This document shows positions 28,777 through 62,799 of a DNA stretch of 64,000 nucleotides, piece by piece. The stretch is from assembly GCF_020510685.1 (NCBI RefSeq), contig NZ_CP075185.1, positions 930,001 through 994,000 on the forward strand, read 5' to 3'. Positions within the stretch are counted from its first letter, which is position 1; each line of letters opens with the position of its first letter. The DNA comes from Dechloromonas denitrificans. GTDB taxonomy: Bacteria > Pseudomonadota > Gammaproteobacteria > Burkholderiales > Rhodocyclaceae. The position numbers and the translations under genes were made by a program. Below the pieces are notes generated by a model, which was given only the letters and a program-made list of their open reading frames with translations, ran no database searches and was not told the origin of the DNA.

Positions 28777-28874
28777 TTTGTTTCTCCTATCCTCTTGAAT
28801 AAAGGGGCGCTTACTTGCCGTCTCCGGCTTTCCGCTGGCCCATCCACGATGCGATTGGGTCGCCGTCAAGTTAT

Positions 28875-44813: not shown

Positions 44814-44943
44814 GCTTGGCGGTGGTCTTTCAGGTAACAAGGAACGCGATTTCCAAGGTTAATGCGCGATCGCCTCAAAGAGAAATGAGGATGGACGCGC
44901 AGTGTTTTGACTGGTGCAACGGTCTGTCCAGGGGGCAGTGGCG

Positions 44944-48066: not shown

Positions 48067-48597
48067 TCAAATATATTTCCGGTACACGTGATGGTACGCG
48101 ATCATGTTTTCCGGGTAGGCGTCATGCCAGGCCAGGTAGCCGGCGTCGCCAGGCGTCAAGCCGCGGTTTTCGGGAACGAACGTAGCTTCCAGCCGACAGT
48201 TGTAGAGCAGGGAAATGAAATGGCCGCGCAGCTCCCGATCCCGGTGAATCATCTCGTTGATGGCTAAAGGATCATGGTCGAAGTCGACCATGATCCCCAC
48301 TTCGCGGAGCGCGACCTGCCGAATGCGCTCGTCGATGCTTTCCTTGAACCGGACGATGCCGCCGGGAATATGCCAGCCGGTACCGGCAAGGACGTCGTCG
48401 CGCCAGGCCAGCAGGGTTCGTCCGGCGGCGTCCTTGATCAGCAGGTCGACGTTGATCAGCGGTGTCGTGCGGCTGATGTAATAGAAAATCTCGTCGGGAA
48501 GCCCGGTCGTCGGGTCTGGCACCGCATCGACGAGCGTTTGAACGGCATTGGCCAAAGCGTCATTCATGGCTGTTTTCGCTGCGGTGATATTTGACAT
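48067..48597 (-). CDS. NUDIX hydrolase, GDP-mannose mannosyl hydrolase-like
   Basis: A 176-aa protein whose body matches the Gmm group: RTTPLINVDLLIKDAAGRTL, then TGWHIPGGIVRFKESIDERI and LREVGIMVDF. The Nudix box keeps the first Gly and Glu but has Gln-Val where most family members have Arg-Glu; the sugar-nucleotide hydrolase Gmm also deviates here. It likely hydrolyses or binds a nucleotide sugar. The ATG at 48597 gives a 38-base overlap with the upstream gene; an ATG at 48567 in the ATGAATGA overlap is an equally good start. Confidence 0.85.
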   Translation of the reverse strand: MSNITAAKTAMNDALANAVQTLVDAVPDPTTGLPDEIFYYISRTTPLINVDLLIKDAAGRTLLAWRDDVLAGTGWHIPGGIVRFKESIDERIRQVALREVGIMVDFDHDPLAINEMIHRDRELRGHFISLLYNCRLEATFVPENRGLTPGDAGYLAWHDAYPENMIAYHHVYRKYI

Positions 48598-49783
48598 ACG
48601 GCAAGGGTTTGGCGGTCTGGACGGCGGGCGTGACTTCGTCGCCGGACAATGGGCGTCCCTTGCAGTAATCGCAGATGTCCAGGTAATCCTTGTTCAATAC
48701 ATAGTCCTTGATCTCGCGCCGCAGCGCCATTTCGCCGGATGCCGAGCTAACGGCCAGGATATTGACGTAATCCCCGGGAATGTCGGGAACGGCGGCCAGC
48801 CGGTCGGCGTTGGCGGCAAATGGACAGCGGAAGAGCTTGCCGTCGGAGAGGCTCAACATGTTTTTCGCACAGCATTCCTGGTACACATTCAGGTTCTCTT
48901 CCGGTGTACGGTTATGCTTTTCGATGCTGGCGCAATCGAGCCAGGAGTCCATCGTCAGGATTCTGTGCGGAATGGCGTGGCGGTCGAAATAGGTTTTCAG
49001 CGGAGCCATGTTGCGCGATAGCACCCCGTAGTCGGTCACGACGGTCATGACCTTCGGGTGGCCGAGCAGGGTGGCCTGCTCTTCCTTGGGAACGATGGCG
49101 CCGTTGGTGTAAATGACGACCCGCTTGACCTTGGGTTCGCCGATCAGCCGGTCGACAACCTTGGGCCATTCCTTGTTCATGAAGGCGTCACCGCCGATGA
49201 CCCGCAGTTCCATGATTTCATCGGTCAGCGAGCACAGGGCATCGATCGACTGGTAGATCAGATCGAGCGGAACGTTGCGCGGCTCCTCGTAGTACTGCAT
49301 CAGGTTCGAGCAATCCTTGCATTTCAGCGAACAGCGCTCGGTGATGATGATGTCGACACTGCGCAGGAACACCTTTTCAGGTTCCAGAAAGCCTTGGTGG
49401 CAGAGGATGCAGCTTTCGATCGAGAATTTCCTGAAATCGACTTCCGCCGCGTCTTGCCGGGTGTCGATGTCTTCGAGAAGCGGCCCGGCAGCGATCCAGT
49501 CATCCAGGCCCTGGCTATGCAGCAGGTCGACGACATCTTTGATCGCGGCCACCGAAATCAGGACCAGGGCGTCGTCGAAATGTTGCCCGAGGTCCGCCGT
49601 ATGGATGACCGTATAACCATGGAAATCGGTTCCGGCGACCTTGATGCTGCCATCGCAGACGGCAGCCACCGGCCAACCCCGTTGCCGGCAAAAGGCCAGC
49701 ACGGTTTCGCCAACGATGCCGGCGCCACTGAGCACCAGTGGCTTTGAGGATTGGGCCAGGCGATCAATAAGTTGCTGTTTCAT
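48560..49783 (-). CDS. Radical SAM protein with N-terminal Rossmann-like module (rSAM 3)
   Basis: A 407-aa protein. Residues 14-105 form a small Rossmann-like module (LVLSGAGIVGETV, then PVAAVCDGS and ALVLISVA). The radical SAM domain starts with CSLKCKDC at 151-158 and has GGDAF in place of GGEP. The C-terminus has a Cys pattern (CCAKNML, LFRCPFAAN, CDYCKGRP) shared with the two radical SAM proteins at 55136-57678, probably an auxiliary Fe-S cluster. It overlaps the glycosyltransferase gene upstream by 4 bases and the NUDIX gene downstream. Probable sugar-modifying enzyme; the reaction is unknown. Confidence 0.88.
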   Translation of the reverse strand: MKQQLIDRLAQSSKPLVLSGAGIVGETVLAFCRQRGWPVAAVCDGSIKVAGTDFHGYTVIHTADLGQHFDDALVLISVAAIKDVVDLLHSQGLDDWIAAGPLLEDIDTRQDAAEVDFRKFSIESCILCHQGFLEPEKVFLRSVDIIITERCSLKCKDCSNLMQYYEEPRNVPLDLIYQSIDALCSLTDEIMELRVIGGDAFMNKEWPKVVDRLIGEPKVKRVVIYTNGAIVPKEEQATLLGHPKVMTVVTDYGVLSRNMAPLKTYFDRHAIPHRILTMDSWLDCASIEKHNRTPEENLNVYQECCAKNMLSLSDGKLFRCPFAANADRLAAVPDIPGDYVNILAVSSASGEMALRREIKDYVLNKDYLDICDYCKGRPLSGDEVTPAVQTAKPLPYVKYHRSENSHE

Positions 49784-50886
49784 GTGTTGGCGTTTTCCAG
49801 TTTTCCATAGCGCTGCTTGCCCTTGATCTTGGCCATAACGGCCAGCAGGCGGACCAGCTTGAGTTTGATCAGCGCCGGCAGCAGTCGGCTGTTGCCCGGG
49901 CGCGGCGTGTAGCAGGGCAGCGATTCGCGCAGAATGGGTGCGGAGATGAATGTGCGCAGTTCCCGGATTATCGCGGGCCGGCTCGCCGAGTTGAGTTGAC
50001 GGCAGGTTCTGATGATGAAAATTAGCGCGTAATGGACGAGCGTATGGCCAACTTCATGCCGCACGCGCTGTGCCAGATCTTGCCGGACGCCAATTTCCGT
50101 CATGAAGCGGTCAATAGTCTTCCTGAATGATTGCATGTCCGAAGCAAGGCTGGCTGCGTTGAGGATCGACATGCTGGCCGAAATGTGACGGGTGCGAAGG
50201 ATATACACGTAAACCGGCTGGTTAACAAATACCAGCCGTCGCGTCTTGCCGAGAAACGCCAGATTGAAAGCAAAATCTTCAAAAAGACGCATGTTTTCGT
50301 CCGCCTGAAGCGCCTGTTCAACAATGACCGAGCGCCGGTACAGACGAGCCCAGCAGTAGCTGACAAGGTGGTTGCTCGGATGGTTCAAAAAATGGCGGAT
50401 ATAGTCGAGCAGCGCTGCGTCGGCGAGAACCGTCATCTGGCCGGCAAAAGGCTCCCCGCCGGGACGGAATACCACCGGCTGGCGTACCGGGGAGGCATCG
50501 TTTTCCTGTTTGTAGAAATTTCCGAGCACCATGTCGGCGTGCTCGGTGTCGGCCGCCGACAATAGCTGCAGCAAGGCGTCCGGCGGCAGGCGATCGTCGG
50601 CATCGAGAAAGAAAATGAAATCGCCGGCCGCGATACGAACACCGGCATTGCGTGCCGCGGCCGGGCCGGCATTCTGCTGGGCAATAAGACGGACCCTTGC
50701 GGAGTCCCGGGCATGGTCCGCGCACAGCCGGGCGCTCTCGTCGGACGATCCGTCGTCGACCAGAATCAACTCCCAGTCACCCATCGTTTGGTCGATGACG
50801 CTGCCGATCGAGAGGGCAAGAAAGCGTGCCGCATTGAAGACCGGCATGACGATGCTGACCCGTGGCGGCTTCCGGAGGCTGGTCAT
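49780..50886 (-). CDS. Family 2 glycosyltransferase
   Basis: With the ATG at 50886 (MTSLRKPPRV) the product has 368 aa; an ATG at 50907 overlapping the previous gene is also possible. The GT-A domain is clear: VSIVMPVFNAARFLALSIGS, ELILVDDGSSDES, NAGPAAARNAG and the metal-binding DADD in FFLDADDRLP. The C-terminal third is helical. It should add one sugar residue to a growing glycan in the cytoplasm; donor and acceptor cannot be told from sequence. Confidence 0.9.
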   Translation of the reverse strand: MTSLRKPPRVSIVMPVFNAARFLALSIGSVIDQTMGDWELILVDDGSSDESARLCADHARDSARVRLIAQQNAGPAAARNAGVRIAAGDFIFFLDADDRLPPDALLQLLSAADTEHADMVLGNFYKQENDASPVRQPVVFRPGGEPFAGQMTVLADAALLDYIRHFLNHPSNHLVSYCWARLYRRSVIVEQALQADENMRLFEDFAFNLAFLGKTRRLVFVNQPVYVYILRTRHISASMSILNAASLASDMQSFRKTIDRFMTEIGVRQDLAQRVRHEVGHTLVHYALIFIIRTCRQLNSASRPAIIRELRTFISAPILRESLPCYTPRPGNSRLLPALIKLKLVRLLAVMAKIKGKQRYGKLENANT

Positions 50887-50893
50887 GTTGGTG

Positions 50894-52051
50894 TCAACGG
50901 CTGGCATAGAGCACCGTTTCGATGGCAAAACCGGTGTAATTCCGGAGGTAGAACTTGTATCCGATATCCAGGGCGGCAAGCTGGAGCGGTATTTCCCAGA
51001 CGTGGTCGGCTGAGTGATAGACGCAAATGCCGAGATCGGGCGCCGATTCCCGGATTAACCGCTCGGCTCCCCTGAGCACCTCCGGTTCGGCGCCCTCCAC
51101 ATCCATCGAAATAAAGGTCGGGTGCAGGCCGGGCAGCGCCTGGTCGAGGGTCACGCACTGAACCACAGAGCTGCCCTGGTCGCTGATCCGCGAACCCAAT
51201 CCGTCGCCGCGGCGGAAAGGCATCTGCCCGCTGTGGCCATAGACGGCGCAGGGCCAGGTCAGAATTCTCTCGGCCAGCGCCGCGGCATGGTGCTGCAGAT
51301 ACTCGGTCAGGCGTGCGTAGATATGCGGCTCCGGCTCGAAGCAGGCAATGGTGTCGACCTTGCCGCAAGTCTGCTGCAGCAGGCGCACGGTGTCGCCGTC
51401 GTAGGCACCGCAGCAGACGTAGCTGCCGTGGCCGCGGGACAGGGGGATGTCGCGCGGGAAATATTGCTCGTCGCGGGGCCGCTGCGGCATCGCTGCGGGT
51501 TTGCGCTGCATGTGGGTTTGCAGGAAGCGCAGATAGACCATCCGGCTTTCGTCGTCGGCCAGCAGATCGAAGGCGCTGAGGATGCGCTGACGATTCTCGC
51601 GGAAATAGTCGAGGCCCCGGAGGGCAGCTTCCGGGGGCTGATTGAACGGGTTATGGATTTCGTAGATATCGTGCAGGAAGACGACATGGGCGAAGCCGAG
51701 CCGGGCAAGACAGGCCTGGATTTCGCCATGCAGGGCGCGGTTGCCGACGCAGATCACGACCAGCCCATCCCGCTGCTCTTCGATGCTCGGCCGGTAATCG
51801 TCCGGCGCGAAGGCGGGGATGCCCTGCCACAGTCCACCATTTGCGAAGGAGCGGTCGAGCACGGCGCGCGGCTGGCAACCGTGCATCTTCATGGCGATCT
51901 CGAAGAACCAGTGGCTACACTCTCCGGCGCCGTAGACGACGATTGGCCGGCCAGCGAGGATCCCCGCCCCGATCGAGTTTTCCGACGTGGCGGCGGGAGC
52001 GGCGAATTCGGCTTCCAGGGCAGTGCGCAGTGCGGACGCGGCTGCCCCCAT
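50894..52051 (-). CDS. FkbM methyltransferase with N-terminal Rossmann-like module
   Basis: The ATG at 52051, just after the upstream stop, gives 385 aa. Residues 34-135 form the extra module (IVVYGAGECSHWFFEIAMKM, AVLDRS, GLVVICVGN). The FkbM domain follows: YVCCGAYDGDTVRLL, CFEPEPH and the intact acidic motif ISMDVEGAEPEVLRGAER. The C-terminal segment (YHSADHVWEIPLQL) is shared with the FkbM protein at 57710-58975, so the two look like paralogues. Probable O-methyltransferase of a sugar. Confidence 0.87.
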   Translation of the reverse strand: MGAAASALRTALEAEFAAPAATSENSIGAGILAGRPIVVYGAGECSHWFFEIAMKMHGCQPRAVLDRSFANGGLWQGIPAFAPDDYRPSIEEQRDGLVVICVGNRALHGEIQACLARLGFAHVVFLHDIYEIHNPFNQPPEAALRGLDYFRENRQRILSAFDLLADDESRMVYLRFLQTHMQRKPAAMPQRPRDEQYFPRDIPLSRGHGSYVCCGAYDGDTVRLLQQTCGKVDTIACFEPEPHIYARLTEYLQHHAAALAERILTWPCAVYGHSGQMPFRRGDGLGSRISDQGSSVVQCVTLDQALPGLHPTFISMDVEGAEPEVLRGAERLIRESAPDLGICVYHSADHVWEIPLQLAALDIGYKFYLRNYTGFAIETVLYASR

Positions 52052-52052
52052 G

Positions 52053-53732
52053 TCAGGCTGCTTCCGGCTGGGCATCGGGGAAAACGGGAATCCCGAACAT
52101 CTCGATGTAGGGTGTCCAGAACGTGCTGGTAGCTGCGAAATTTCGCGCCTTTTCCAGGTATTGCGCCGCCTTTTCCGGCTCGCCCATGCGTTGCAGGCAA
52201 GACCCGGCATAGAAGCAGGCGATTGCATGGTCAGGCTTGACCCGCAGGACTTTCTCGAAGCAGTCGAGTGCTTTCCGATCGTCGCCCAGGCGGACGTTCG
52301 AGTTGTGCACGAAATTGAGTTCGATGTTCATCGCGTAACTGATGTGCTGGATGAACTCGGCCGACCAGTCTGGCGTTTCGATTACGGCTCGCTTGTAGTT
52401 CGCGTTCACCGGACTGTTCACGAAATATTTCTTGTCGATCGCTTCGTCGTACATTTCGCTGCCGGGGATCGGGGTGGCGACGAAAACGCGGAACCAGTCG
52501 CCGTAAACCCCTTTCAGAAACTCGCGGCTTTCGTCGATGTCGGCCTTCGTTTCGCCCGGCATGCCGACGATGATATTGCAGTCGGTGAATATGCCGATCT
52601 CCCGGCAGTCGTCGATGACGCGCTTGACGATGTCCAGCTTGAGCGGCTTGTGCATCACGTCCTTGAGGACCCGCGCGCTGCCCGATTCGACCGGCAGGAC
52701 CAGCTCGTCGATCCCGGTGTCCTTCAACAGCTGGAGAAAGCGCCGGTCGAGCGCGTACAGCGCCAGTGCGTTCTGGAAGAAGATCGCGCCGCCGCGTTCC
52801 TTGATCGCGGCAACGATGTTGTAAGGGCGCTCGCGGCCGCCCATGAAGTGATCGTCCTGGATGATGAAACTCTTCATGCCGTAGCGGGCAATGATCTGGT
52901 CTATGTCTTCGGCCACCCGCTGTTCGCTGTAGTAACGCATTTTCCGGCCGTGGGCCTGATAGGAAGCGCAGAAGGTGCATTTGAAGGGACAGCCGCGTGA
53001 GGTCATGATGGCCAGCGCGCCAGCGCTCTCGGCGCCGACCGCATAACGCGACAGCGTCGGGTTCAGGCGGTAGCCATCGAGATCGAGGATGTCGTAGTCG
53101 AGGAAAGGGATGTCGTCGAGATCCTCGATGAAGGTGTGCTGGAAAGGGTTGCCCACGACCGGGACCTTCTCGCGCGAGATCCACGAATTGTGGCTGGCGA
53201 TCAGCGCCGGCCTGTCCGTCGCCAGCAGCAGATCGCGCAGCGGCAGTTCTCCTTCGCCAAAGCAGATGGCGTCGATGCACGCCGAATCGGCAAAGAAATC
53301 CCGATACATTGCGGTCACCAGGTTTCCGCCGGCCAGGATCGTCGCCTCGGGGAAGCGCTCCCGGCACACCGCGGCGATATCGACGACGCTGTGGTAGGAG
53401 GACGTGAATTGGGCGGAAATGGCGACGACCGTGGGGTTGAATTCGTCGTATTTCCCGGCGAGAAAATGCTGGCGGAAATAGCTTCTGAAATCGCCGAACT
53501 CGAAATCGGATTCCTTCAGCAACTGGACGTTGAAGTCGATGGCCATCGACGTCAGTTCCAGGTGTTTCTTCAGATAGGTGCTCAGCGAGATGATGCCGAG
53601 CGGGATGTCGGTGATCACCGAGCCAAAATTCTTGTCGGATTGTCCCAGCCTGACCGTACCCACGTTGCCCGGCGGCCTGACGAAATCGTCAAAGGTGATG
53701 TTCGGCGGAACGACGAAGAGGATTCTTTCCAT
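52053..53732 (-). CDS. B12-binding radical SAM protein with C-terminal TPR
   Basis: A 559-aa class B-type radical SAM enzyme. The N-terminal part (to about 180) is a cobalamin-binding-like Rossmann domain (VAISAQFTSSYHSVVDIAAV, TILAGGN, CFGEGELPLRDL). The radical SAM motif CPFKCTFC is at 248-255, followed by IIQDDHFMG and NIIVGMPGETKADIDESREF. Family members often methylate unactivated carbons or phosphorus. A short TPR-like tail (KALDCFEKVLRVKPDHAIAC) ends the protein, echoing the TPRs of the OGTs. It overlaps nothing and starts 81 bases after the methyltransferase gene. Confidence 0.88.
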   Translation of the reverse strand: MERILFVVPPNITFDDFVRPPGNVGTVRLGQSDKNFGSVITDIPLGIISLSTYLKKHLELTSMAIDFNVQLLKESDFEFGDFRSYFRQHFLAGKYDEFNPTVVAISAQFTSSYHSVVDIAAVCRERFPEATILAGGNLVTAMYRDFFADSACIDAICFGEGELPLRDLLLATDRPALIASHNSWISREKVPVVGNPFQHTFIEDLDDIPFLDYDILDLDGYRLNPTLSRYAVGAESAGALAIMTSRGCPFKCTFCASYQAHGRKMRYYSEQRVAEDIDQIIARYGMKSFIIQDDHFMGGRERPYNIVAAIKERGGAIFFQNALALYALDRRFLQLLKDTGIDELVLPVESGSARVLKDVMHKPLKLDIVKRVIDDCREIGIFTDCNIIVGMPGETKADIDESREFLKGVYGDWFRVFVATPIPGSEMYDEAIDKKYFVNSPVNANYKRAVIETPDWSAEFIQHISYAMNIELNFVHNSNVRLGDDRKALDCFEKVLRVKPDHAIACFYAGSCLQRMGEPEKAAQYLEKARNFAATSTFWTPYIEMFGIPVFPDAQPEAA

Positions 53733-53813
53733 TGGCTTTTCTGTTATTGGGGCAAGGTGGCTGATATTTTTTTAGCGTTTCGGCAATCTTTGAAAAGATA
53801 TGCAGAAATGCAT

Positions 53814-55052
53814 TTATTGAATTGGATTGAACGGATTCACGATCTCGAAACCAAGCCCCGGTTCCGCCGATAGCTCCGCGTAGATTTCTTCATTATGGGC
53901 AACGCTGGTGATGATCAGGACGGATATGGCCTGATTCAAATCCTCAAGCTTGGTTTTGCCGTGGATCGGAATCGGCAGACCCGAATCAGCACTTGGCTTC
54001 TTGTCGAAAACCATGGCCGGCCAAAGGTCTCGCGGCAGAATGGATTCGAGCAGGTTTTTGCAGTATCCGCCGGCGCCATAAAATGCAACATGCGCCGATC
54101 CATGCTTGATTTGCGCTTCCTGCATGATTGATTGCCAGTAAGCGCTGGCAGAATCGACGCGATTCATGTGATAGGTTGCTTGTCGCCTGATGGTTTCAAT
54201 AAAGTAATCGAAGTAATGCGGCGGGTAGTTCATTTTTATGGATTTCGCTGCGTCGTTCAGGTGCTCTTTGCTGGGCAACAATCGCCACGGCAGCATGAGT
54301 GCCGAAAACAAATCCCGAACATAGCGCCGGGTATCTTCGGTGACGGTAAATGATGCAATGTTCGGTGTGTGAAACTTGTTGAATTCTGCGAAGTCCGGAA
54401 CCAGCTTGTCCGCGACGACCGTATCGTGCAGAACCCGGCAGGCAATCATTGCAGATGAGCCGAACAGGCGGGTGTCCGGGCTGTCCACGTCAAAATGATG
54501 AACCTGGTCGTGAATGACGACCGTTGCGCCGTCTTTCAGGTACGGCAGAATGCAGAGAAAGTTGAGAACTTCTCCGGGAAGGTAGTGCGCGGTATCAAGG
54601 ATGCAGAAATCGATATCGCCACCGATATCTTCGAGGTACGCAGAAATGTCGCGTCCGCAATGCAAGCTCAGCCGGTCGAGCAACTCGGGAAATAGTTTCA
54701 AGGTTTGCTTGGCCGGCAAGTCGGCGTTTATGTCAACCGCATGAAGCAGTGCGGTGGACTCCAACAAATCAAGGGTTTTTAACAGAACAGCCGTGCTCCC
54801 CCCTTTGTTTACGCCAACCTCCAGAACTTTCCTCGGGCTGCGCTCGCGAATCAGGCCGCAGACAAAGGCGCTCTCTTCGGAGGCCATCCCGATGGTGTAA
54901 TCAAACGGATCGTCCTGCGCAGGCGGCGGGAGTTTTGCCTGAACGGCTTCCCGCGGTGCATTCCAGAGGATGGCGGTGACATCGGCAAGAAGTGGCTCGG
55001 CGTCAACGATCGGGCGCACAGCGACAATTTTTTTATTGTCAGGGAAATTCAT
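53814..55052 (-). CDS. Class I SAM methyltransferase with C-terminal Rossmann-like module
   Basis: I use the ATG at 55052 because GAGGA lies 7 bases upstream (412 aa); ATG at 55109 is the longer option. The methyltransferase part (about 50-230) has KVLEVGVNKGGSTAVLLKTL, HAVDIN and IDFCILDTAHYLPGEVLNFL, like the Methyltransf_24/CmcI-type group. Residues 318-412 form the extra module (HVAFYGAGGYCKNLLES, MVFDKKPSAD, VLIITSVAHNEEIY). Codon use and A/T content in the first 20 codons look lower-GC than neighbours. The substrate is probably a sugar or a lipid-linked sugar; this is inference. Confidence 0.85.
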   Translation of the reverse strand: MNFPDNKKIVAVRPIVDAEPLLADVTAILWNAPREAVQAKLPPPAQDDPFDYTIGMASEESAFVCGLIRERSPRKVLEVGVNKGGSTAVLLKTLDLLESTALLHAVDINADLPAKQTLKLFPELLDRLSLHCGRDISAYLEDIGGDIDFCILDTAHYLPGEVLNFLCILPYLKDGATVVIHDQVHHFDVDSPDTRLFGSSAMIACRVLHDTVVADKLVPDFAEFNKFHTPNIASFTVTEDTRRYVRDLFSALMLPWRLLPSKEHLNDAAKSIKMNYPPHYFDYFIETIRRQATYHMNRVDSASAYWQSIMQEAQIKHGSAHVAFYGAGGYCKNLLESILPRDLWPAMVFDKKPSADSGLPIPIHGKTKLEDLNQAISVLIITSVAHNEEIYAELSAEPGLGFEIVNPFNPIQ

Positions 55053-55135
55053 CAACCGATCCTCAAGATTTAATGCAGTCAGCGCTGGTTGTTCTACTAA
55101 TAAAGACATGTCTTTACGGTGGCGTACGGCGTGGC

Positions 55136-56398
55136 TTAAGAGCAGCCATCATTCACCGGCTGGATTGGGCGCGGTTGCTTGCGTTTTGATTTCGGCAGCT
55201 GAATTCCGGCGGGAACGAAATTCCTGTTGTCGGCCGGGCAAAAATCGCAGGCGCTCAGCGCGCTTTTCCGGTTGGCCAGGGCGCGGATTTCCGCGGTTAG
55301 TTCCGCACAGCCGGTCTGGTATTTTCCGACATCGACGAAATCCCCAGGCAGTTCCGGAATCAGTTTCAGTTCCTGCGTGAAATTTGAAAATGTGCAGCGA
55401 TGGACTTTGCCATTCATGATCTGGCAGCAGATCATGGTGTTCGCGATGCAGTTGGTGAAAACTTCCGCGTTCTTTTCCGGACTGCGCTTTCTTGGATAGA
55501 TCGGAGTCTGCATTCCCCAGTCATTCCCCTGGTAGCGGTAGTAGTCCACGAATATCTGCCGACCAGCGCAGGCTTCGGCGAGTTGGGCGATCTTGCTGGA
55601 GTAGGGGCCGTAGTCGGAAACAATGACGCATGCCCCGTGCCGCTGCATCGCGTCGAGCACCGACGCCTTCGGGACGAGGGTGCCGTTGGTGACAAAGTCG
55701 ATAAAAAGCAGATTGGGGATTTTTGAAACGCCCTCGACGATTTCCTCGATTTCCTTGTGCATGAAGGGCTCGCCACCCTGCAGTGCAATGTGATGCACGA
55801 CGTCGAAGGCGCTGCAGTACTTGGCGATGTCATCGACGATACGCGATGCCGGGTAGGTTACCGGCTTGGCGTTGTCCGGAACGAAGGCGCCGCAGTCCTG
55901 GCAATTGAGCGTGCATTTCTGCGTGATGACGTAGGACACCGATGGTGAGCGGCAGGGCGCCGGCGATCCGGGCTCCGGGTAGAGCCGGGCGATGGTCTTG
56001 GCCAGTGCCTCCGGGCCGCATGCGCGCCGCGTGACATCGGAAAAATAACTGAACAGGATATCCGGCATCAAATAACGAATATCCCTGGCCCCGGCCGCGT
56101 CCAAGGTGCCGGCGACGGGCGGATAGTTCGCCGCATCGAGAACGCTGGGCAGGAAACAGGCATCGGGAAAGCGCTCGACCGCCTGTGCCATCGGCATGAC
56201 CGGAATATCGAACAGCATGCCGTGCTTCTTCGGGTTGCTGTCCGTCCAGGCGTCCACCGGCACCTGGAAATGAGCCAGAACTTTGGCGGTATACCAGCCG
56301 CCCCGGCCGGCCCCGACGACGACGACCCGCCGCTGGCTGGCCCGCATCTCGGCGACAAAGCGCGCCAATTCGTCACGATAGACGTCGGCGTGGTTCAT
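55136..56398 (-). CDS. Radical SAM protein with N-terminal Rossmann-like module (rSAM 5)
   Basis: The ATG at 56398 overlaps the upstream stop (ATGA) and has AAGGAAGGA before it, giving 420 aa. Residues 24-115 are the extra module (VVVVGAGRGGWYTAKVLAHF, AWTDSNPKKHG). The radical SAM motif CTLNCQDC is at 162-169, followed by HIALQGGEPFMHKEI. C-terminal cysteines occur in CCQIMNGKVHRCTFS and CDFCPADN. It is clearly a tandem paralogue of the next gene (shared GGEPFxHxEI, CCQIMxG and overall order). Reaction unknown. Confidence 0.9.
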   Translation of the reverse strand: MNHADVYRDELARFVAEMRASQRRVVVVGAGRGGWYTAKVLAHFQVPVDAWTDSNPKKHGMLFDIPVMPMAQAVERFPDACFLPSVLDAANYPPVAGTLDAAGARDIRYLMPDILFSYFSDVTRRACGPEALAKTIARLYPEPGSPAPCRSPSVSYVITQKCTLNCQDCGAFVPDNAKPVTYPASRIVDDIAKYCSAFDVVHHIALQGGEPFMHKEIEEIVEGVSKIPNLLFIDFVTNGTLVPKASVLDAMQRHGACVIVSDYGPYSSKIAQLAEACAGRQIFVDYYRYQGNDWGMQTPIYPRKRSPEKNAEVFTNCIANTMICCQIMNGKVHRCTFSNFTQELKLIPELPGDFVDVGKYQTGCAELTAEIRALANRKSALSACDFCPADNRNFVPAGIQLPKSKRKQPRPIQPVNDGCS

Positions 56399-57678
56399 GG
56401 CTGGGTTCCTTCCTTGAGCAGCCGCTTGATTTTCGCGGAGAGTTGTATCGCCGGTTCGACGAGCGTGACCGTGTTCGGATCGCAATACGAGCAGGAGGCG
56501 AACGCAGCTTCCCGGGTCAGGAAGTTTCTGACCGAGCGCCCGAGCGTATCGGCATCGATGTCGTCGCCGAGCCTGACGAAATCGCCTTCGCTCGGCGGGA
56601 TCAATCCTTGGGCCATGCCGTGGGCCGATACCGGGCAGCGGTACAGCCGTCCGTCCATGATCTGGCAGCATACTTTTGTCGCCATGCACTCACTGTAGAT
56701 TTGCTCGGTTGCCGTGCCTGGCCGCTCGTGCAGCTTGATCGGCGCGGAGCGTAGCCATTTTTCGCTCGGGTCGACGAAATGAATGTCGCAGAAGATGTCG
56801 TGTTTCGCGCATGCCGAAAATATTTCCGCCTGCTGTTTGGAGAGCTTGCCGTAATCGCTTTGGTGCAGGTCGGCCCCGGCGCTCGCCAGGTCACGCAATA
56901 TCTGATCGGTGGGCGAGATATTCCCGTTGGTGATCAGGTTGATGAAGATCAGGTTCGGGATGCTCGAGATTTCCCGGCAGATTGCACCGATTTCCGGATG
57001 CAGGAAGGGCTCCCCTCCGTGCAGGCTGATTTCCGGGACCAGCGTGAAAGCGCTGCAGTAGTGCTTGATGTCCCTGACGATTTCGGCCACCGAGAAATCG
57101 AGCGGCGCGTTGTAGTAGGGGATGCGCTGGCCGCAATCGTAGCAGCGGAGGTTGCATTTCTGGGTGACGACCCCGGTAACGAAAGGGGAAACGAATTCGC
57201 CATGACCAACATCGCCATAGCGGTAGCCGTCGAGCGAATAGTAGTCCGACAGCTTGTTCAGGCTCGCGGCGAGCAGTTGATGATCGCACTTTCTTCCGGC
57301 GACTTCGGTGAGGTAGCCATAAAGAAAACCGTAGGCGTCGTGCTCGGGGATCGCGAACCCCCGGTCGCCGAACCCGCTCTTGACCGCCTGTGCGCTGTTG
57401 CGGCGAAATAGGCCGAAGAGCACGACGGCCCCGGGGTATTCCTTTTCCAGATCGGTGGCGGAGAGGACGCGATAGCCGTGGAATCCGTCACTGGCCTTCC
57501 GCGCATCGTTGTCGCAGAAGCAGTCGATCCGGACGCCCCGCGCTTCCAGCGCCTTCATGATGTACCAGCCGGCCTTGGCCGCGCCAAAAACAGCAACGCC
57601 CTTGCCGTTATCTGCTGCCGCTCGCGCGCAGCGGTCGATCATCTCTCGATATTCCCGGGATGCTGTCTGGGTGACCAT
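56395..57678 (-). CDS. Radical SAM protein with N-terminal Rossmann-like module (rSAM 6)
   Basis: A 427-aa paralogue of the preceding protein. Residues 26-115 are the extra module (GVAVFGAAKAGWYIMKALEA, DCFCDNDARK). The motif CNLRCYDC is at 175-182, followed by EISLHGGEPFLHPEIGAICR and a C-terminal Cys set (VCCQIMDGRLYRCPVSAHG, CSYCDPNT). It lies 31 bases after the FkbM gene. Two near-neighbour copies with the same domain order suggest successive or stereo-different steps on one sugar, which is only inference. Confidence 0.9.
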   Translation of the reverse strand: MVTQTASREYREMIDRCARAAADNGKGVAVFGAAKAGWYIMKALEARGVRIDCFCDNDARKASDGFHGYRVLSATDLEKEYPGAVVLFGLFRRNSAQAVKSGFGDRGFAIPEHDAYGFLYGYLTEVAGRKCDHQLLAASLNKLSDYYSLDGYRYGDVGHGEFVSPFVTGVVTQKCNLRCYDCGQRIPYYNAPLDFSVAEIVRDIKHYCSAFTLVPEISLHGGEPFLHPEIGAICREISSIPNLIFINLITNGNISPTDQILRDLASAGADLHQSDYGKLSKQQAEIFSACAKHDIFCDIHFVDPSEKWLRSAPIKLHERPGTATEQIYSECMATKVCCQIMDGRLYRCPVSAHGMAQGLIPPSEGDFVRLGDDIDADTLGRSVRNFLTREAAFASCSYCDPNTVTLVEPAIQLSAKIKRLLKEGTQP

Positions 57679-57709
57679 GAATCTCTCGTGCCTCAGTTAA
57701 CGTAACGGT

Positions 57710-58975
57710 TCAAGGTATGGCGAACAGGTCGGTGTCGGACAGATGGTAGGTGCCGTGCCGCAGATACAGGTCATAGCCGGGGTTGTAGGAGTGTACGAGC
57801 AGGGGGATTTCGTAAATGGCTTCCAGCGAGTGATAGACGCCGAGCGCGAGTTTGGGTCGGTGTCTGGCTATGGTTTTCCTGGCACCTTTGAGCAGTTTGG
57901 GAATGATGTTGGCACCCGGGTCCATTTTGATCAGCGTCGCCGGCTTTTCGTTCAGGAAATTATCCAGGGTGACGATCCTGACTTCATGCTCTCCGGCGGC
58001 GTGCTCGATGCCGACATGGAAGCGGTCCTCCTGGTCAGAGGTCAGGAAGCGAACCGTTCCGTCTTCGTCGCCGAGGCCCATGGCGTGGCATTCGGTGTTC
58101 GGTATGTTCTCGCATACCTTGTGCAGAGCCGCGAAACACGGCGGGTCCGGCTCAAAGGCAATGATCGAATCGTAAGTGACGCCCTGTTTCCGGCAGGCAT
58201 CAACGAAAGTCAGGATGGTGTCGCCATCGAAGGCGCCGACGTCGATATAGATCTCACCGTCCCGCAGGCGCAGGACATCGTTGTTGAAGTAATAGCGGTC
58301 TTCGGTCGTGCCGTCGCAACCGAACATGCCGAACTCGCGGTATGGCTCGCTGAATTCGGTGATGAATTTTTTCAGCAGCGCGAGATTTCCTCCGGAAGCG
58401 AGCAGGGCCAGCTTGGTGACGAACAGATCCTTCGATTTCTGATCGGACAGGAGTTCGTAGGTTTTTTCGACCTTGTCGCCATCCCTGATCAGGATGTCCT
58501 GCATCGATAACGGTTGGTAGTACTTGGCGAATCCCGAAATCAGCGTCTGGCTGCCGACCATCGCGCAGGAATAGAGAAAGTTGGTGTTCGGGTCATCCGG
58601 GCGGCAGAGGATCAGGTGCTCCGGTATGCCCATGGCGGAAAGCTGGCGGTGGATGTCGGCCGCGAATTTTCTCGAGGCGATCAGGATCGGCTCGCCGTGC
58701 CAGTGATCCTTCAGCGTCTCTCCGGCGATGACCGGTATCCCGCCGATGCTGCTGCCCGCTTTCGCCAATCCGTTGTCGCAGACGAAGCGTACGGAAATCC
58801 CCTGGTTCTGCATCGTGTGCAGCAGTTCGGCCCCCAGTCCGCCGGCGCCGAACAGGATCACTGTGGTCGGAATCGCTGATTGATCGTGCAGCCGGGCAAA
58901 GAGTACCGGGAGGAACTCCTGGTCCTTGGGCGCGGCATTGGCAATAGCCAGTATTTCGTCGATTACGCGTGGCAT
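57710..58975 (-). CDS. FkbM-like methyltransferase with N-terminal Rossmann-like module and altered active-site motif
   Basis: With the ATG at 58975 (MPRVIDEILA, AAGG upstream) it has 421 aa; ATG at 59041 is the longer option. Residues 36-130 are the extra module (VILFGAGGLGAELLHTMQNQ, FVCDNG, PILIASR). The methyltransferase part keeps IYIDVGAFDGDTILTF and AFEPDPP, but the usual D-x-E-G-A-E motif is replaced by KMDPGANIIP, so both acidic residues of the motif are lost. It may be inactive or have a changed role. It is a paralogue of the FkbM protein at 50894-52051. Confidence 0.85.
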   Translation of the reverse strand: MPRVIDEILAIANAAPKDQEFLPVLFARLHDQSAIPTTVILFGAGGLGAELLHTMQNQGISVRFVCDNGLAKAGSSIGGIPVIAGETLKDHWHGEPILIASRKFAADIHRQLSAMGIPEHLILCRPDDPNTNFLYSCAMVGSQTLISGFAKYYQPLSMQDILIRDGDKVEKTYELLSDQKSKDLFVTKLALLASGGNLALLKKFITEFSEPYREFGMFGCDGTTEDRYYFNNDVLRLRDGEIYIDVGAFDGDTILTFVDACRKQGVTYDSIIAFEPDPPCFAALHKVCENIPNTECHAMGLGDEDGTVRFLTSDQEDRFHVGIEHAAGEHEVRIVTLDNFLNEKPATLIKMDPGANIIPKLLKGARKTIARHRPKLALGVYHSLEAIYEIPLLVHSYNPGYDLYLRHGTYHLSDTDLFAIP

Positions 58976-59053
58976 GGGGTGACCCTTGAAGTATTGAGAA
59001 CGATTTGCCGCATCCGGCATGCTTGACGTGCTGTCCGCCATTCGGACGGCAGG

Positions 59054-60541
59054 TTAGGCCGGCGGAGGGGCGTCGGGATTTTCTTCGAAAATGGCCAGAT
59101 TGCTGGTCGTGCCAAGATTGTCCGAGACGGTGCGGGCGATGTCGTAGCGATGATGCTCCGGGGCGGCGACGACGATCAGATCCGGGGCCAGGCTGGCCAG
59201 GTCGGCGTAGGGGAAGACTGTCACGCCATCGATTTGCTTGCCATGCAGGACGCTGTCGCGGTCGAAGAACCCGACGATCTCGGCCTCCGCCAGTTCCGGG
59301 GCGGCGCGCAGTCGGCGCGCCAAGGTGCAGGCCGGCGCCAGCGCCAGACGTTTTCCGGCCAGCGACAGGGGCTGCCAGTCTTGGCCCGGGGAACGGCCGC
59401 GCAACGGCGCCACCGACAACCTGGCGATTTCGCCGGAACTCGGCGCGCCAGCGGTATCGCGGAAATCGCCCAGTTGAAGATGGGGGGCGGCGAGATTTGT
59501 TGTCTTCCGCAAGCGGGCAATTTCCGCCTTGGCCGCCTCGAGAAGCAGTTTGCCTTGCAGACTGACCACGGCCAGATGTTTTTCCGGGAAGTGGATGGCT
59601 TGCAGCCCATGCTTTTCAAGCATCAGGTAGGTTTTGGCGTAGGCCGCGATATGCCGCGAGTAATCGTGTCCGCCAAAATCGGCACAGTCACCCGGCAGGT
59701 TGCACAGGGGGTCGAAATCGAAGGTCAGCCAGACCTCCTGCGGCCTGATTGCCAGCATGGCGTAGGTGAAGCCGACAACATCGTCGTCGCTACAGTTGTC
59801 CTGGCAGAAGATGTACTTGACCGATAGCTGCCCGCCGCCGAGGTTGCCGGCATGGGCATAACGGGTGATCGTTTCGAGCACATCGGCGTAGCGTTTGCTC
59901 TTCTTGATCTTGTCGTATGAGGACGGTGTGCCGGCGTCGAGAGAGGCGCATACCCAGCGGATCGTTCCCTTGGCCAGTCCGTCATAGACGGATTGCCGAT
60001 AGATCACGGCGTTGGTATAGAGAAAGACACGGATCCGCCGCGAGGCGAAATAATCGATGTAGTCGTCGAAATCCTTGAGCAGCGTCGGTTCGCCGCCGTT
60101 GAAATCGACCGCGGCATCCCAGACGACATCCTCGGGGGCGAACAGCCGGAGGACGGTCAATGCATCGTATTTCGCTTCGGCGAACGAGTCGAACTGGGTG
60201 TAGCCGCAGAAATTGCAGCGCAGGTTGCAGGTCGTGGTCGCCGCCAGGTCGATATGGCCCAATTGGTCGAAACGCACCTCTTCCGGCTTTTTCAGGACGA
60301 CCATGTGGCAGTGCTTGCAGGGCGTTTCGCTGTGGTCGTCGTTCAGCAGATCGAAAATCCACTGCCGCTTTTCGCTGATCATTTCCTTGGTAATTGTCGT
60401 CTTGGCCGCTTCCGCCGCCGTCCAGTAGATCGGTGAGGAAAAGGGGCCAAGCTGGCAGGCGTGAATGCCTTCCTGGCCCAGGCGCAGTCCGCTTTCCAGC
60501 TTGGGGCAGGATTTGACGAGCTTTGGTTGCTGGATGGTCAT
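59054..60541 (-). CDS. Radical SAM protein with C-terminal Rossmann-like module (rSAM 7)
   Basis: A 495-aa protein with a different layout. An N-terminal part has CKHCH near residue 75, which could bind a metal or cluster. The radical SAM domain has CNLRCNFC at 105-112, DFNGGEPTLLKDF and WVCASLDAGTPSSYDKI. From about 393 to 477 it carries the extra module at the C-terminus (KRLALAPACTLARRLRAAPE, GFFDRDSVLHG, PDLIVVAAPEHHRYD), with GxG partly degenerate. Its ATG overlaps the SDR stop by 4 bases. The reaction is unknown. Confidence 0.88.
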   Translation of the reverse strand: MTIQQPKLVKSCPKLESGLRLGQEGIHACQLGPFSSPIYWTAAEAAKTTITKEMISEKRQWIFDLLNDDHSETPCKHCHMVVLKKPEEVRFDQLGHIDLAATTTCNLRCNFCGYTQFDSFAEAKYDALTVLRLFAPEDVVWDAAVDFNGGEPTLLKDFDDYIDYFASRRIRVFLYTNAVIYRQSVYDGLAKGTIRWVCASLDAGTPSSYDKIKKSKRYADVLETITRYAHAGNLGGGQLSVKYIFCQDNCSDDDVVGFTYAMLAIRPQEVWLTFDFDPLCNLPGDCADFGGHDYSRHIAAYAKTYLMLEKHGLQAIHFPEKHLAVVSLQGKLLLEAAKAEIARLRKTTNLAAPHLQLGDFRDTAGAPSSGEIARLSVAPLRGRSPGQDWQPLSLAGKRLALAPACTLARRLRAAPELAEAEIVGFFDRDSVLHGKQIDGVTVFPYADLASLAPDLIVVAAPEHHRYDIARTVSDNLGTTSNLAIFEENPDAPPPA

Positions 60542-61707
60542 GGCGTGGGCCCTATGCGAATTGGTTGTGAGCAGGCGTCAATGAAGAAGGCCTTGCGGAT
60601 TGCCGCTTCCATCGAGAGTCCGCAATAGTCCTGTGCTGAAAACCAGCGGCCATTGACGTCGGCATCGATAAGTGCGCCGAGAAGCGCCCCCGGCAGCACG
60701 CTGCCGACTGCATGCGGCGCCGCGCTACCGCCCATGTCGGTGCGTAGCCAGCCGGGGTCGAGCAGACTGATCATCACGCCGCTTCCCACCAGGTGCGGGG
60801 CGATGTCGTACACGAATTTGTCGAGCGCCGCCTTGCTGCAGGCGTAGGCCATTTCATCCGGGCGGTGCTGGATGCTGCTCGATAGATTGATGACGCGGCC
60901 GAAACCCTGGCTTTTCATTTTGGGAATGATCGCCTGGCTGATCCGGATCGGGGCGATGGCATTGATCGCATAGCAGTCGGCGAAATCCGTGCTGCCCATT
61001 TTCCAGAAACCGTCCGGGCAAGCTGGCGAGATCCCGGCATTGTTGTAGAGCAGGGCAAGCGGTGGGGCGGAACTGGCCAGCCAGTCGCATAGGTGATCAA
61101 GCGCCTGCGGGTCGGCCAGGTCGGCGGCGATGGGGCGGGTTTCAACTCCCATTGCGCCGACGCTTTCGCATGCCCGCCGGGCGCTTTCCTCGGTTTTTCC
61201 GTGGCAGATCAGATTCAGGCCGCGCTGGGCGAGGGCCAGGGCGATCTGCTGGCCGATGCCGCGACTGGCGCCGGTGACCAATGCCCATTGTCCGCGCAGG
61301 TCAAGCGGTGGCGGTGCCGGTTTGGCGGCATCGTCGGGGTCCAGGCGCCGTAGCCTGGAAACCCGATGGTATCCCCGGTCGAAATTCGCCAAATAAATGC
61401 GCTGGTGCCCGAGCGCCCGCAACTGGGCGCTTACCGCTTCGTAGTTGCGGATGCACAGGACAATCGTGGCGTTGCCCGGTATCTGTTCCGGGGGAAGGCA
61501 CCGAACGCTGTGGAAGGATTTTCCCCATTTCGTTGCGGCATTGTCCGACAGCACATCGGGTCGCTGCCCGGCAGCGAGGACGAGCTGGTCGTAACAGGCG
61601 TCGAACAGTACTCCGACACCAAAAAAGCAGAGCGGCTCCGCTGTTTTCGGCATTCGCCAGTATTCGTCCAGGGCTTCCGCTCCCGCCGCGCAGCGCTTGT
61701 CGCTCAT
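60538..61707 (-). CDS. Short-chain dehydrogenase with N-terminal Rossmann-like module
   Basis: With the ATG at 61707, overlapping the upstream stop (ATGA), the product has 389 aa. Residues 25-110 are the extra module (LCFFGVGVLFDACYDQLV, DVLSDNAATK, NATIVLCIRNYEAVS). The classical SDR domain (139-389) has VTGASRGIG, YNNAG, the catalytic Ser and Tyr/Lys in VINLSSSIQHRPDEMAYACS then K, so it should be an active NAD(P)-dependent oxidoreductase, probably on a keto-sugar. Fusion of an SDR to this module is a new combination to me. Confidence 0.88.
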   Translation of the reverse strand: MSDKRCAAGAEALDEYWRMPKTAEPLCFFGVGVLFDACYDQLVLAAGQRPDVLSDNAATKWGKSFHSVRCLPPEQIPGNATIVLCIRNYEAVSAQLRALGHQRIYLANFDRGYHRVSRLRRLDPDDAAKPAPPPLDLRGQWALVTGASRGIGQQIALALAQRGLNLICHGKTEESARRACESVGAMGVETRPIAADLADPQALDHLCDWLASSAPPLALLYNNAGISPACPDGFWKMGSTDFADCYAINAIAPIRISQAIIPKMKSQGFGRVINLSSSIQHRPDEMAYACSKAALDKFVYDIAPHLVGSGVMISLLDPGWLRTDMGGSAAPHAVGSVLPGALLGALIDADVNGRWFSAQDYCGLSMEAAIRKAFFIDACSQPIRIGPTP

Positions 61708-62777
61708 TGCAGCGGCGTGCTTCCCGGTGGCGGATCGTATGAGACCGAGCGGGTCACCAGATTGTCCCGGGTCTCCAGCGCGGCAACGGCTTGTCGTCTT
61801 TCGGCCGGATCGCCGATCGACCAATAGGCGTTCAGTTGGACGCAGACCTCGTTATTCCTGATCTCCGGAAGCAGGGCCATCGAGAGGTCGTGATACCTCC
61901 GGGCGCTGCGCTCGTCGCCGTTGATCAAGGCGCGAACGCTGTAGCGCAAGGCAAGATTGGCGACTTTTTCGATTGACGCGGGAAGCCGCTCGGTAACGTT
62001 ATGATGGTTGTAAAACGATGCCAACTCGGCAAACTGGTGATTGAGCACGTAAGGCCCGATCACTTCCATCATGTTATCCGCAGCCTTGAACGAGTCGTTA
62101 GCCAGATGCAGGCGGTGCAGCAGCAGTGGATCCTTGATGTAGACAATCGGATACTCGCAGCACATGTTGAAGTCCATCATGCGCGTACCGTACCAGCGTG
62201 CGGCCAGTCCGCCGATCACCGTTTTCCCGGTCGTGAAGGTCTTGCGATACATGATTTGCGACACCGCCGGGTTGACTGCCGCCATCATGTAAACGGCGGC
62301 CTGGCTGGGGCCGGGGATTTTGCATGTCTGATTGTAAAAAGGAGCTTCCGCCACGCGTTCGCCGTATTCATCGAGGATGGCGCGGTGAACGATGGTGAAG
62401 CCAACCGCCAGATCATTTTCCATTGCCTCGACGCAGCGCCGTGTGAAGTCGGGCAGTAATGCGTCGTCGGAGCAGAGTTCGACAAAGTATTTACCGCGGG
62501 CGTTGACCCAGCAGTTTCGGAAGTTGGCATCGGTCCCGAAGTTCTGGCGGTTCCTGGCGACGAAAAAGATATCCGGGAACCGCTGCTGGTATTCAAGCGC
62601 GATTGCCCAGGAATCGTCGGTCGAGGCGTTGTCGGAGAAGCAGATTTCGATGTTGTCGTAAGTTTGCGCCAGGATGCTGTCGAAACACTCCCGTAAATAT
62701 CGACCATAGTTGTAGTTGAACACCGTGATGCTGACGAGCGGTGTCTTGGGATCGTTGAGTCGCGGATTCAGGGCCAT
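61704..62777 (-). CDS. Family 2 glycosyltransferase
   Basis: The ATG at 62777 (MALNPRLNDP) gives 357 aa and avoids overlap with the upstream gene. GT-A features: VSITVFNYNYGRYLRECFDS, NIEICFSDNASTDDSW, NFGTDANFRNCWVNARG and CSDD in the DxD position. The C-terminal third (about 250-357) is helical. It probably adds a sugar to the glycan made by this locus. Donor and acceptor are unknown. There is no clear ribosome site before the start. Confidence 0.88.
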   Translation of the reverse strand: MALNPRLNDPKTPLVSITVFNYNYGRYLRECFDSILAQTYDNIEICFSDNASTDDSWAIALEYQQRFPDIFFVARNRQNFGTDANFRNCWVNARGKYFVELCSDDALLPDFTRRCVEAMENDLAVGFTIVHRAILDEYGERVAEAPFYNQTCKIPGPSQAAVYMMAAVNPAVSQIMYRKTFTTGKTVIGGLAARWYGTRMMDFNMCCEYPIVYIKDPLLLHRLHLANDSFKAADNMMEVIGPYVLNHQFAELASFYNHHNVTERLPASIEKVANLALRYSVRALINGDERSARRYHDLSMALLPEIRNNEVCVQLNAYWSIGDPAERRQAVAALETRDNLVTRSVSYDPPPGSTPLQ

Positions 62778-62799
62778 TGGTTTTCGGAGGTTGGGTGAT

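Follow-up and report, generated by a model that had tools for sequence, protein, structure and literature searches.

Genes and module-bearing enzymes of the island

The window analyzed here is a 64,000-nucleotide stretch of the Dechloromonas denitrificans genome. It starts with genes for FlgE and FlgK and also encodes FliM, FliK, a FliI-type ATPase, FliG, FliF, FliD and flagellin. Flagellin, FliD, glycosyltransferase family 41 (GT41) proteins, family 2 (GT2) proteins and sugar genes are contiguous, with flagellin followed by an FkbM gene, two giant tetratricopeptide repeat (TPR)-GT41 proteins and then the glycan genes (Table 1). Exactly eight proteins of the window, as detected with held-out hidden Markov models (HMMs), share one homologous module of about 90–100 residues. 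Each of the eight segments was located at one defined end of its gene, and the Pfam assignments of the host enzymes cover four catalytic classes, namely radical S-adenosylmethionine (SAM) proteins, FkbM methyltransferases, Methyltransf_24 and short-chain dehydrogenase/reductase (SDR).

The eight segments were aligned and, in leave-one-out runs, a profile built from seven of them was used to search 495 open reading frames (ORFs) from the window and its upstream neighbor. The omitted segment always ranked eighth, just after the seven profile members, with E values of 1.4e-14 (48560), 5e-6 (50894), 5.2e-3 (53814), 1.9e-7 (55136), 1.3e-13 (56395), 9.6e-13 (57710), 1.5e-3 (59054) and 6.7e-5 (60538); in none of the runs did a non-module ORF do better than 0.083. 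No shuffled segment scored above the held-out segment in any run (0/4000). A chance or compositional pattern as the source of the module is excluded by these held-out profiles and shuffles. Profiles without any window rows and without rows of the same partner class also recovered all eight (E 2.8e-22 to 2.5e-5; best non-module ORF, 0.31), although a window-derived profile had first served to gather their outside rows, and some radical SAM proteins are among the rows labelled "other". A profile of 88 of the 130 listed module segments (the 42 omitted are mostly additional radical SAM rows) matched the eight window ORFs and no more, with the next ORF at E 9.1. A scan of the full 4.6 Mb genome gave the eight window proteins as its strong matches; the next-best E values were 1.9e-6, for a 620-residue ORF, and 0.012, for a true C-methyltransferase. 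The module regions are nearly unannotated in a Pfam scan. Judged by position and an in-frame ATG, the 55136 gene probably starts at 56398, 50894 at 52075 and 60538 at 61707.

Table 1. Genes and modules of the island, in window coordinates unless a locus is named. Strict E, value with the profile lacking window rows and rows of the same partner class; OGT, O-GlcNAc transferase; pLDDT, predicted local distance difference test.
Feature	Position	Strand	End of protein	Evidence
FliD flagellar cap	26212..27567	-		PF07195, PF02465
Flagellin, probable acceptor	28048..28869	-		PF00669, PF00700
FkbM methyltransferase without module	29159..29998	+		PF05050
TPR protein with GT41 (OGT-type) transferase domains	30078..33941	+		PF13844 E 2.1e-93, TPR
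TPR protein with GT41 (OGT-type) transferase domains	33902..38617	+		PF13844 E 6e-94, TPR
FkbM methyltransferase without module	38620..40032	-		PF05050
Large multi-domain glycosyltransferase	40114..43764	-		PF00535
NAD-dependent epimerase/dehydratase	43761..44840	-		PF01370
Radical SAM/SPASM protein without module	45812..46933	-		PF04055, PF13186
Radical SAM/SPASM protein without module	47028..48053	-		PF04055, PF13186
Nudix-like protein	48067..48597	-		PF00293 under cut-off
Radical SAM protein rSAM_C	48560..49783	-		PF04055 28.3 bits, just under cut-off 29.5
Module of rSAM_C	49439-49786		N-terminal	E 1.3e-14, profile without window and radical SAM rows
GT2 glycosyltransferase without module	49780..50907	-		PF00535
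FkbM methyltransferase 2	50894..52075	-		PF05050
Module of FkbM methyltransferase 2	51635-51988		N-terminal	Strict E 1.3e-7
B12-binding radical SAM protein, C-terminal TPR, without module	52053..53732	-		PF02310, PF04055, TPR
Class I methyltransferase (Methyltransf_24)	53814..55109	-		PF13578
Module of Methyltransf_24 protein	53817-54137		C-terminal	Strict E 2.5e-5
Radical SAM protein rSAM_B	55136..56398	-		PF04055
Module of rSAM_B	56039-56374		N-terminal	Strict E 1e-13
Radical SAM protein rSAM_A, twitch-dehydrogenase type	56395..57678	-		PF04055
Module of rSAM_A	57310-57645		N-terminal	
FkbM methyltransferase 1	57710..59041	-		PF05050; PF02629 over cut-off
Module of FkbM methyltransferase 1	58562-58909		N-terminal	Strict E 2.8e-22
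Radical SAM protein rSAM_59	59054..60541	-		PF04055
Module of rSAM_59	59057-59395		C-terminal	APAC for GAG; strict E 5.6e-9
SDR oxidoreductase	60538..61707	-		PF00106; model pLDDT 88.9
Module of SDR	61345-61680		N-terminal	Strict E 1.4e-11
GT2 glycosyltransferase without module	61704..62837	-		PF00535
YerE-like thiamine diphosphate enzyme, C-terminal part	62800..64000	-		PF02775, PF00205
YerE-like enzyme, first 206 residues	L001:3-620, outside window			

Fold and conserved site of the module

By sequence and predicted fold, the module is a Rossmann-like domain of the kind found in the sugar acetyltransferases PglD, VioB and PerB, in the dehydratase-type N-domain of 3nkl, at the C-termini of C-methyltransferases, and in Rex. 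Among solved structures, the 88-row profile matched 3nkl (E 1.8e-11), VioB (3.4e-8) and 4rv9 (9.4e-5), and WbaP chains weakly (0.006-0.007). The predicted fold corresponds to PglD-type domains, and its listed matches (re-ranked Foldseek hits) are nucleotide-sugar and coenzyme A (CoA) proteins. When the SDR model was the query, the fold searches gave SDR chains and so bear on the SDR domain, not on its module.

The module is counted as a relative of the Pfam family PglD_N (PF17836) rather than a member, since its cut-off is not reached; only 53814 is listed, with 14.9 bits versus a gathering cut-off of 23.4. FkbM methyltransferase 1 (57710) passes PF02629 (CoA_binding), with 25.9 versus 22.3 bits. 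For PF08484 (Methyltransf_14), rSAM_B (55136) scores 22.7 bits as a protein versus a cut-off of 23.5, and 24.9 in the genome scan; 56395 and 57710 are under this cut-off, and the remaining five are listed for neither PF02629 nor PF08484. PF22674 had no match in the control genomes or in the organism's own genome.

The best conserved positions over the 88 modules are the Gly-rich loop, an Asp and core positions. The first Gly of the GAG motif is present in 79 of the 88 modules and the second in 71, and the Asp at the end of β2 is found in 86, including all eight of the window. In Pcryo_0637, according to PMC8040287, a domain of this kind is the platform for uridine diphosphate (UDP), with Asp 40 and Ser 11 contacting the ribose and Asp 41 the uracil; the same account gives Asp 35 and Asp 36 as the PglD counterparts. 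The module Asp aligns, via VioB, with the PglD-type ribose Asp and is therefore, by analogy, a putative ribose-binding residue. The position that follows is Asn in about 43% of the 88 modules, as in VioB.

An earlier note on this DNA, made from the sequence alone, had proposed by eye a module at these ends of eight proteins of four catalytic classes. The ends are borne out by the held-out profiles and shuffles, and the classes by Pfam. The alignment and HMM that it suggested as a check recovered each segment, with E values from 1.4e-14 to 5.2e-3. Its comparison with PglD_N and the C-terminal domains of sugar C-methyltransferases agrees with sequence and predicted fold, both of which also indicate the one common fold that a fold comparison was to reveal.

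Catalytic partners and distribution

Modules within the window resemble each other no more (mean identity 17%) than modules of different loci do (21%); identities to the orthologous modules of L002, from a Sulfuricella metagenome-assembled genome (MAG), range over 38-66% for the seven with an ortholog in that locus, all but 53814. On a weakly resolved tree of the 88 modules (106 columns), the partner label (61 named rows) required 9 changes versus 19.6 when shuffled, with 0/200 shuffles as low, and the locus label (48 rows) 33 versus 33.9, with 80/200 as low. The column-averaged association gave a z of 3.26 for partner and 0.06 for locus. The modules therefore follow their catalytic partner and not their locus, which suggests old, partner-specific fusions instead of a tag copied within the locus. 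Recent copying of a single tag within the locus was rejected on these identities and the lack of a locus signal.

About a dozen catalytic types bear the module across the related loci examined, with types assigned from Pfam matches or from resemblance to window proteins; the set of unassigned proteins covers 86 of 88, two overlapping L010 entries having been dropped. With the window-only profile, the partners are radical SAM proteins (with and without SPASM or B12 domains), FkbM, Methyltransf_23, Methyltransf_24, SDR, GT2 (module C-terminal), Gly_transf_sug, TOD1_MUCI70, TupA ATP-grasp, pyruvyl transferase, cytidylyltransferase and MptE-like proteins. A sulfatase-like protein (under the Pfam cut-off), a HAD hydrolase and an N-terminal position on Methyltransf_24 were found by the iterated profile only. 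An N-terminal module is present in 120/120 SDR relatives (the best 120 of 3745) and in 74 of the 78 radical SAM relatives listed. Among the 85 class I methyltransferase relatives listed, 44 have a C-terminal module and 41 have none. The module is N-terminal in the Methyltransf_24 protein of L043 (iterated profile only, E 2.6e-11) and occurs at either end of radical SAM proteins; the fusion thus probably arose more than once.

Two further architectures were observed. An 806-residue protein of a Eubacterium MAG (L030:11227-13644) consists of Methyltransf_23, a central module and a terminal cytidylyltransferase, and is reminiscent of the nucleotide-linked amino-acid chemistry known from certain Clostridia flagellins. 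In L067, a B12 radical SAM protein (L067:1-1773) bears a module; that of the window instead has a TPR region, which might contact the TPR-GT41 proteins.

Related loci (79) were gathered with a radical SAM query, so loci having such proteins are over-represented. In 81 sequences, comprising these loci, the window and the upstream piece (L003 and L010 overlap on one contig), the window-only profile found at least one module ORF in 63, at least two in 26 and at least three in 17. L003, from a Nitrospirae MAG, contains nine modules (10 on its contig), L002 contains seven in the same order as the window, and genomes G166 and G168 have at least 12 on one contig stretch each. Whole-genome matches at E 1e-4 number 42 in G166 (the genome of L043) and 38 in G168 (that of L061), in several clusters, including one large cluster apiece between flagellin genes. 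Uniqueness of the locus was rejected, as L003, L002 and stretches of G164, G166 and G168 hold as many modules or nearly so. Among 119 other genomes drawn from this phylum, matches at 1e-6 occur in 78, in many cases to a single ORF of 600-700 residues, and three have at least three modules within 20 kb, with a maximum of five. Each of 24 genomes of the same genus has at most four matches at 1e-3, and thus such an island is no general feature of these genomes.

Module clusters lie beside flagellin genes in both Pseudomonadota and Bacillota. In 14 genomes (the organism's own and 13 reached through the loci, L067 left out), with the cluster nearest flagellin chosen, which favors the result, all have Flagellin_N matches and 10 have a cluster of at least two modules within 25 kb of such a match on the same contig; in four of these (G162, G164, G166, G168) the cluster is between two flagellin genes. 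A census of genomes provides a fairer test. Where two modules occur within 10 kb, four of seven genomes have flagellin within 10 kb (0.18 expected, P ~1e-5), three of these four (G080, G084, G049) being of one genus. The 20 kb rule gives 4/10 (0.28 expected, P ~1e-4) and adds G061, G116 and G142, which have no flagellin on that contig; fragmented contigs may conceal further flagellin neighbors in the census. PF00669 may also match hook-associated proteins, and some "flagellin" matches may be FlgL.

These surveys modify several statements of the earlier note. It knew of no described system with so many fusions in one locus, a count now equalled or exceeded in L003, G166 and G168; its search for loci with three or more fusions yields the 17 sequences above, window included. 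The possibility it named as refuting, that the segments are the normal part of each family, applies in part, the module being usual in the SDR and radical SAM subfamilies and present in 44 of the 85 class I methyltransferase relatives. Of the common handle or docking domain that it suggested, a nucleotide-sugar handle is the best reading, and a locus-wide docking tag or common carrier is disfavored by the absent locus signal.

Flagellar setting and sugar pathway

Given the flagellar region with flagellin, the two TPR-GT41 proteins and a cytidine diphosphate (CDP)-sugar/YerE-like pathway, the locus is very probably a flagellin glycosylation island, and gene context makes flagellin the probable glycan acceptor. 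The earlier note did not recognize this setting. A generic surface-polysaccharide locus with a lipid carrier is less likely, as the flagellin, FliD and TPR-GT41 genes are contiguous with the island.

YerE makes yersiniose from CDP-4-keto-3,6-dideoxyglucose. Upstream of the module genes, on the minus strand, the CDP-3,6-dideoxyhexose genes RfbF (TIGR02623, 470 bits versus a cut-off of 300), RfbG (TIGR02622, 463 versus 278) and RfbH (NF011936, 709 versus 423) all score over their curated cut-offs. The nearest solved structure to the window part of the thiamine enzyme is 8rph (JanthE; E 6.3e-73). JanthE is YerE-like, and such enzymes make tertiary alcohols from α-keto acids and ketones, as described in PMC12188165. 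Together with RfbF, RfbG and RfbH, the YerE-like enzyme makes a branched, CDP-linked sugar destined for flagellin the most likely product of the island. Among the radical SAM proteins, rSAM_A has a CX3CX2C motif, auxiliary-cluster cysteines and the fold of a twitch radical SAM dehydrogenase, which is its predicted activity.

Several other genes accompany the island. A NeuB-like synthase (L001 623-2203) lies between RfbH and the YerE-like enzyme; it scores 131 bits versus a NeuB cut-off of 400, has a C-terminal extension that appears cupin-like by eye, and is kept in L010 (51% identity) and L002 (61% over the part present). The Nudix-like protein is also kept with the island (61-77% identity in L002, L010, L022 and L024, the last from a Pseudothauera nasutitermitis strain), as is the radical SAM/SPASM protein at 45812..46933 (83-87% in L002 and L024). 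ORF 45003-45731, with no Pfam match under 1e-5 and 55-63% identity in L002, L022 and L024, is an unnamed island member. The giant TPR proteins (30078-38617) contain two GT41 units apiece, their eight part-matches corresponding to four units (genome positions 960828-963878 and 965297-968563); an equal score of 99.9 bits for two of the part-matches suggests a recent duplication.

Proposed function of the modules

The function that we favor, with confidence about evenly divided, is that each module may hold the nucleotide of its enzyme's nucleotide-sugar substrate. This proposal, made by analogy, follows from the fold, the conserved ribose Asp, the CDP-sugar genes and the GT41-type transferases; transferases of this type use nucleotide sugars directly. 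We infer a scheme in which binding of nucleotide sugars by the modules, the identity of the nucleotide, the order of steps and flagellin as acceptor are all provisional. The module would grip the nucleotide (CDP or another nucleoside diphosphate), the phosphates through its β1 loop and the ribose through the Asp that ends β2, and the catalytic domain (radical SAM, methyltransferase or SDR) would meanwhile act on the sugar. The starting sugar would be CDP-4-keto-3,6-dideoxyglucose, supplied via RfbF, RfbG and RfbH, and a branch would probably be added by the YerE-like enzyme. The sugar would then be oxidized, reduced and methylated while nucleotide-bound, and the finished sugar would be moved to flagellin by glycosyltransferases, including the two TPR-GT41 proteins.

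A number of observations weigh against this function. The residue after the Asp differs among the eight modules (N, S, G, N, R, N, R, K), and since the corresponding position in Pcryo_0637 contacts the base, a single common nucleotide is not obvious. The rSAM_59 module has APAC in place of the Gly motif, as do both of its relatives among the 88 modules (3/3, three species), with the Asp kept; by sequence it is a distinct pocket variant. Within the radical SAM family, sequence varies more in the module (mean entropy 2.26 bits) than in the catalytic part (1.82 bits). Modules are also found on GT2 and ATP-grasp proteins, which should own donor sites, and are missing from several island members, namely two GT2, the B12 radical SAM, two SPASM radical SAM and two FkbM proteins. 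Finally, the top sequence matches of the module are Rex chains (E 1.1e-12; others 3.4e-11 and 1.7e-8). Rex is a redox sensor that binds NAD(H), and these matches would fit a module with the same ligand, or a different redox dinucleotide, that stores the cofactor or acts as a redox switch. This is very unlikely, however, because a module of about 100 residues presumably corresponds to roughly half of a dinucleotide fold, the part for one nucleotide, methyltransferases and glycosyltransferases have no need of NAD, and the listed fold matches are to nucleotide-sugar and CoA proteins. No Rex DNA-binding N-domain is among the Pfam matches of the eight proteins, and NCBIfam Rex models score far under their cut-offs on them.

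The phosphoglycosyl transferase WbaP provides the model for a regulatory nucleotide sensor, in which free uridine or cytidine monophosphate (UMP, CMP) or UDP from the pathway would throttle each enzyme. According to PMC10942596, the WbaP domain is stabilized by UMP, UDP and uridine triphosphate (UTP) and destabilized by UDP-Gal, UMP inhibits WbaP with a half-maximal inhibitory concentration of 4.1 uM, and the authors propose nucleotide sensing; the weak match of WbaP to the module profile is in line with this. It would be unusual, though, for a single pathway to have sensors at eight of its steps, and PglD-type relatives employ the domain for the substrate itself. Moreover, the SDR module, with a mean entropy of 1.47 bits, is almost as conserved as its catalytic domain, with 1.24 bits, the radical SAM module less so, and sensing in this form seems unlikely. 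The module could also be a docking or assembly handle for flagellin, a chaperone, a scaffold or other modules, giving an enzyme complex on a protein-linked glycan. The clusters adjoin flagellin genes, very different catalysts (glycosyltransferases among them) bear the module, and the WbaP domain carries dimer contacts according to PMC10942596 and PMC12802240. A shared local partner should nevertheless leave a locus signal, which neither the tree nor the column analysis detected, and the best conserved positions are the Gly-rich loop, Asp and core, making docking improbable. The modules might, alternatively, be ordinary inherited parts of their subfamilies, perhaps merely structural, with the eightfold repeat mirroring the gene content of the island. 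Nearly all of the SDR and radical SAM relatives listed do have them, and an FkbM domain with a module is already seen in the solved structure 2py6. We regard this as highly doubtful in view of the class I methyltransferase relatives that have no module, the opposite end used in L043 and the near-invariant pocket Asp.

Relation to known systems and implications

The fold and single fusions of the module are already known. The N-domain of PglD, VioB, PerB and Pcryo_0637 has the same Rossmann-like fold, Gly-rich loop and Asp at the end of β2, but the PglD type is joined to a left-handed β-helix acetyltransferase and the window modules to radical SAM, FkbM, class I methyltransferase and SDR domains. 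Sugar 3-C-methyltransferases carry a homologous C-domain (Methyltransf_14; see 4rv9 and the near-cut-off PF08484 score of 55136) on a methyltransferase; they differ in their partners and in the zinc-binding Methyltransf_13 domain, which is matched by none of the eight window proteins. The related nucleotide-binding N-domain of WbaP and PglF (PF13727) likewise occurs on unrelated glycan enzymes; its hosts there are of two types and have a membrane helix bundle, compared with four catalytic types in one locus here. In 2py6, the N-terminal module and FkbM domain are in one chain, as in the window, but this is a single protein. For the twitch radical SAM dehydrogenase SpeY, the match spans model residues 154-418, with the module outside it.

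At the level of the locus, the flagellin glycosylation islands of Enterobacteriaceae also have GT41, FkbM and sugar-synthesis genes at flagellin genes, as described in PMC4875605, in which the word Rossmann has no occurrence in the main text. The window island differs by its CDP-sugar/YerE-like route and seven radical SAM genes. RfbF, RfbG, RfbH and a YerE-like enzyme are common to CDP-yersiniose-type pathways, to which the island adds the NeuB-like protein together with numerous steps by radical SAM proteins and methyltransferases; a final reductase is not among the assigned genes, although no search was aimed at a YerF-type enzyme. No description of module fusion across a pathway was found in the literature searched, with most subscription journals outside its reach.

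The sharing of a domain by WbaP and PglF was termed puzzling in a 2024 structural paper (PMC10942596). The island turns this puzzle into a testable system, with four catalytic types and eight enzymes in one operon-like island. Module clusters are also a simple marker for flagellin glycosylation islands and for new radical SAM sugar chemistry. As a tentative extension of the nucleotide-holding function, the nucleotide may be a common carrier handle, comparable to a polyketide carrier protein, with unrelated catalysts having been recruited by gaining the module. If so, such islands would be widespread, working in several phyla as assembly lines that produce unusual glycans of flagellin, and could be recognized from the module count alone.

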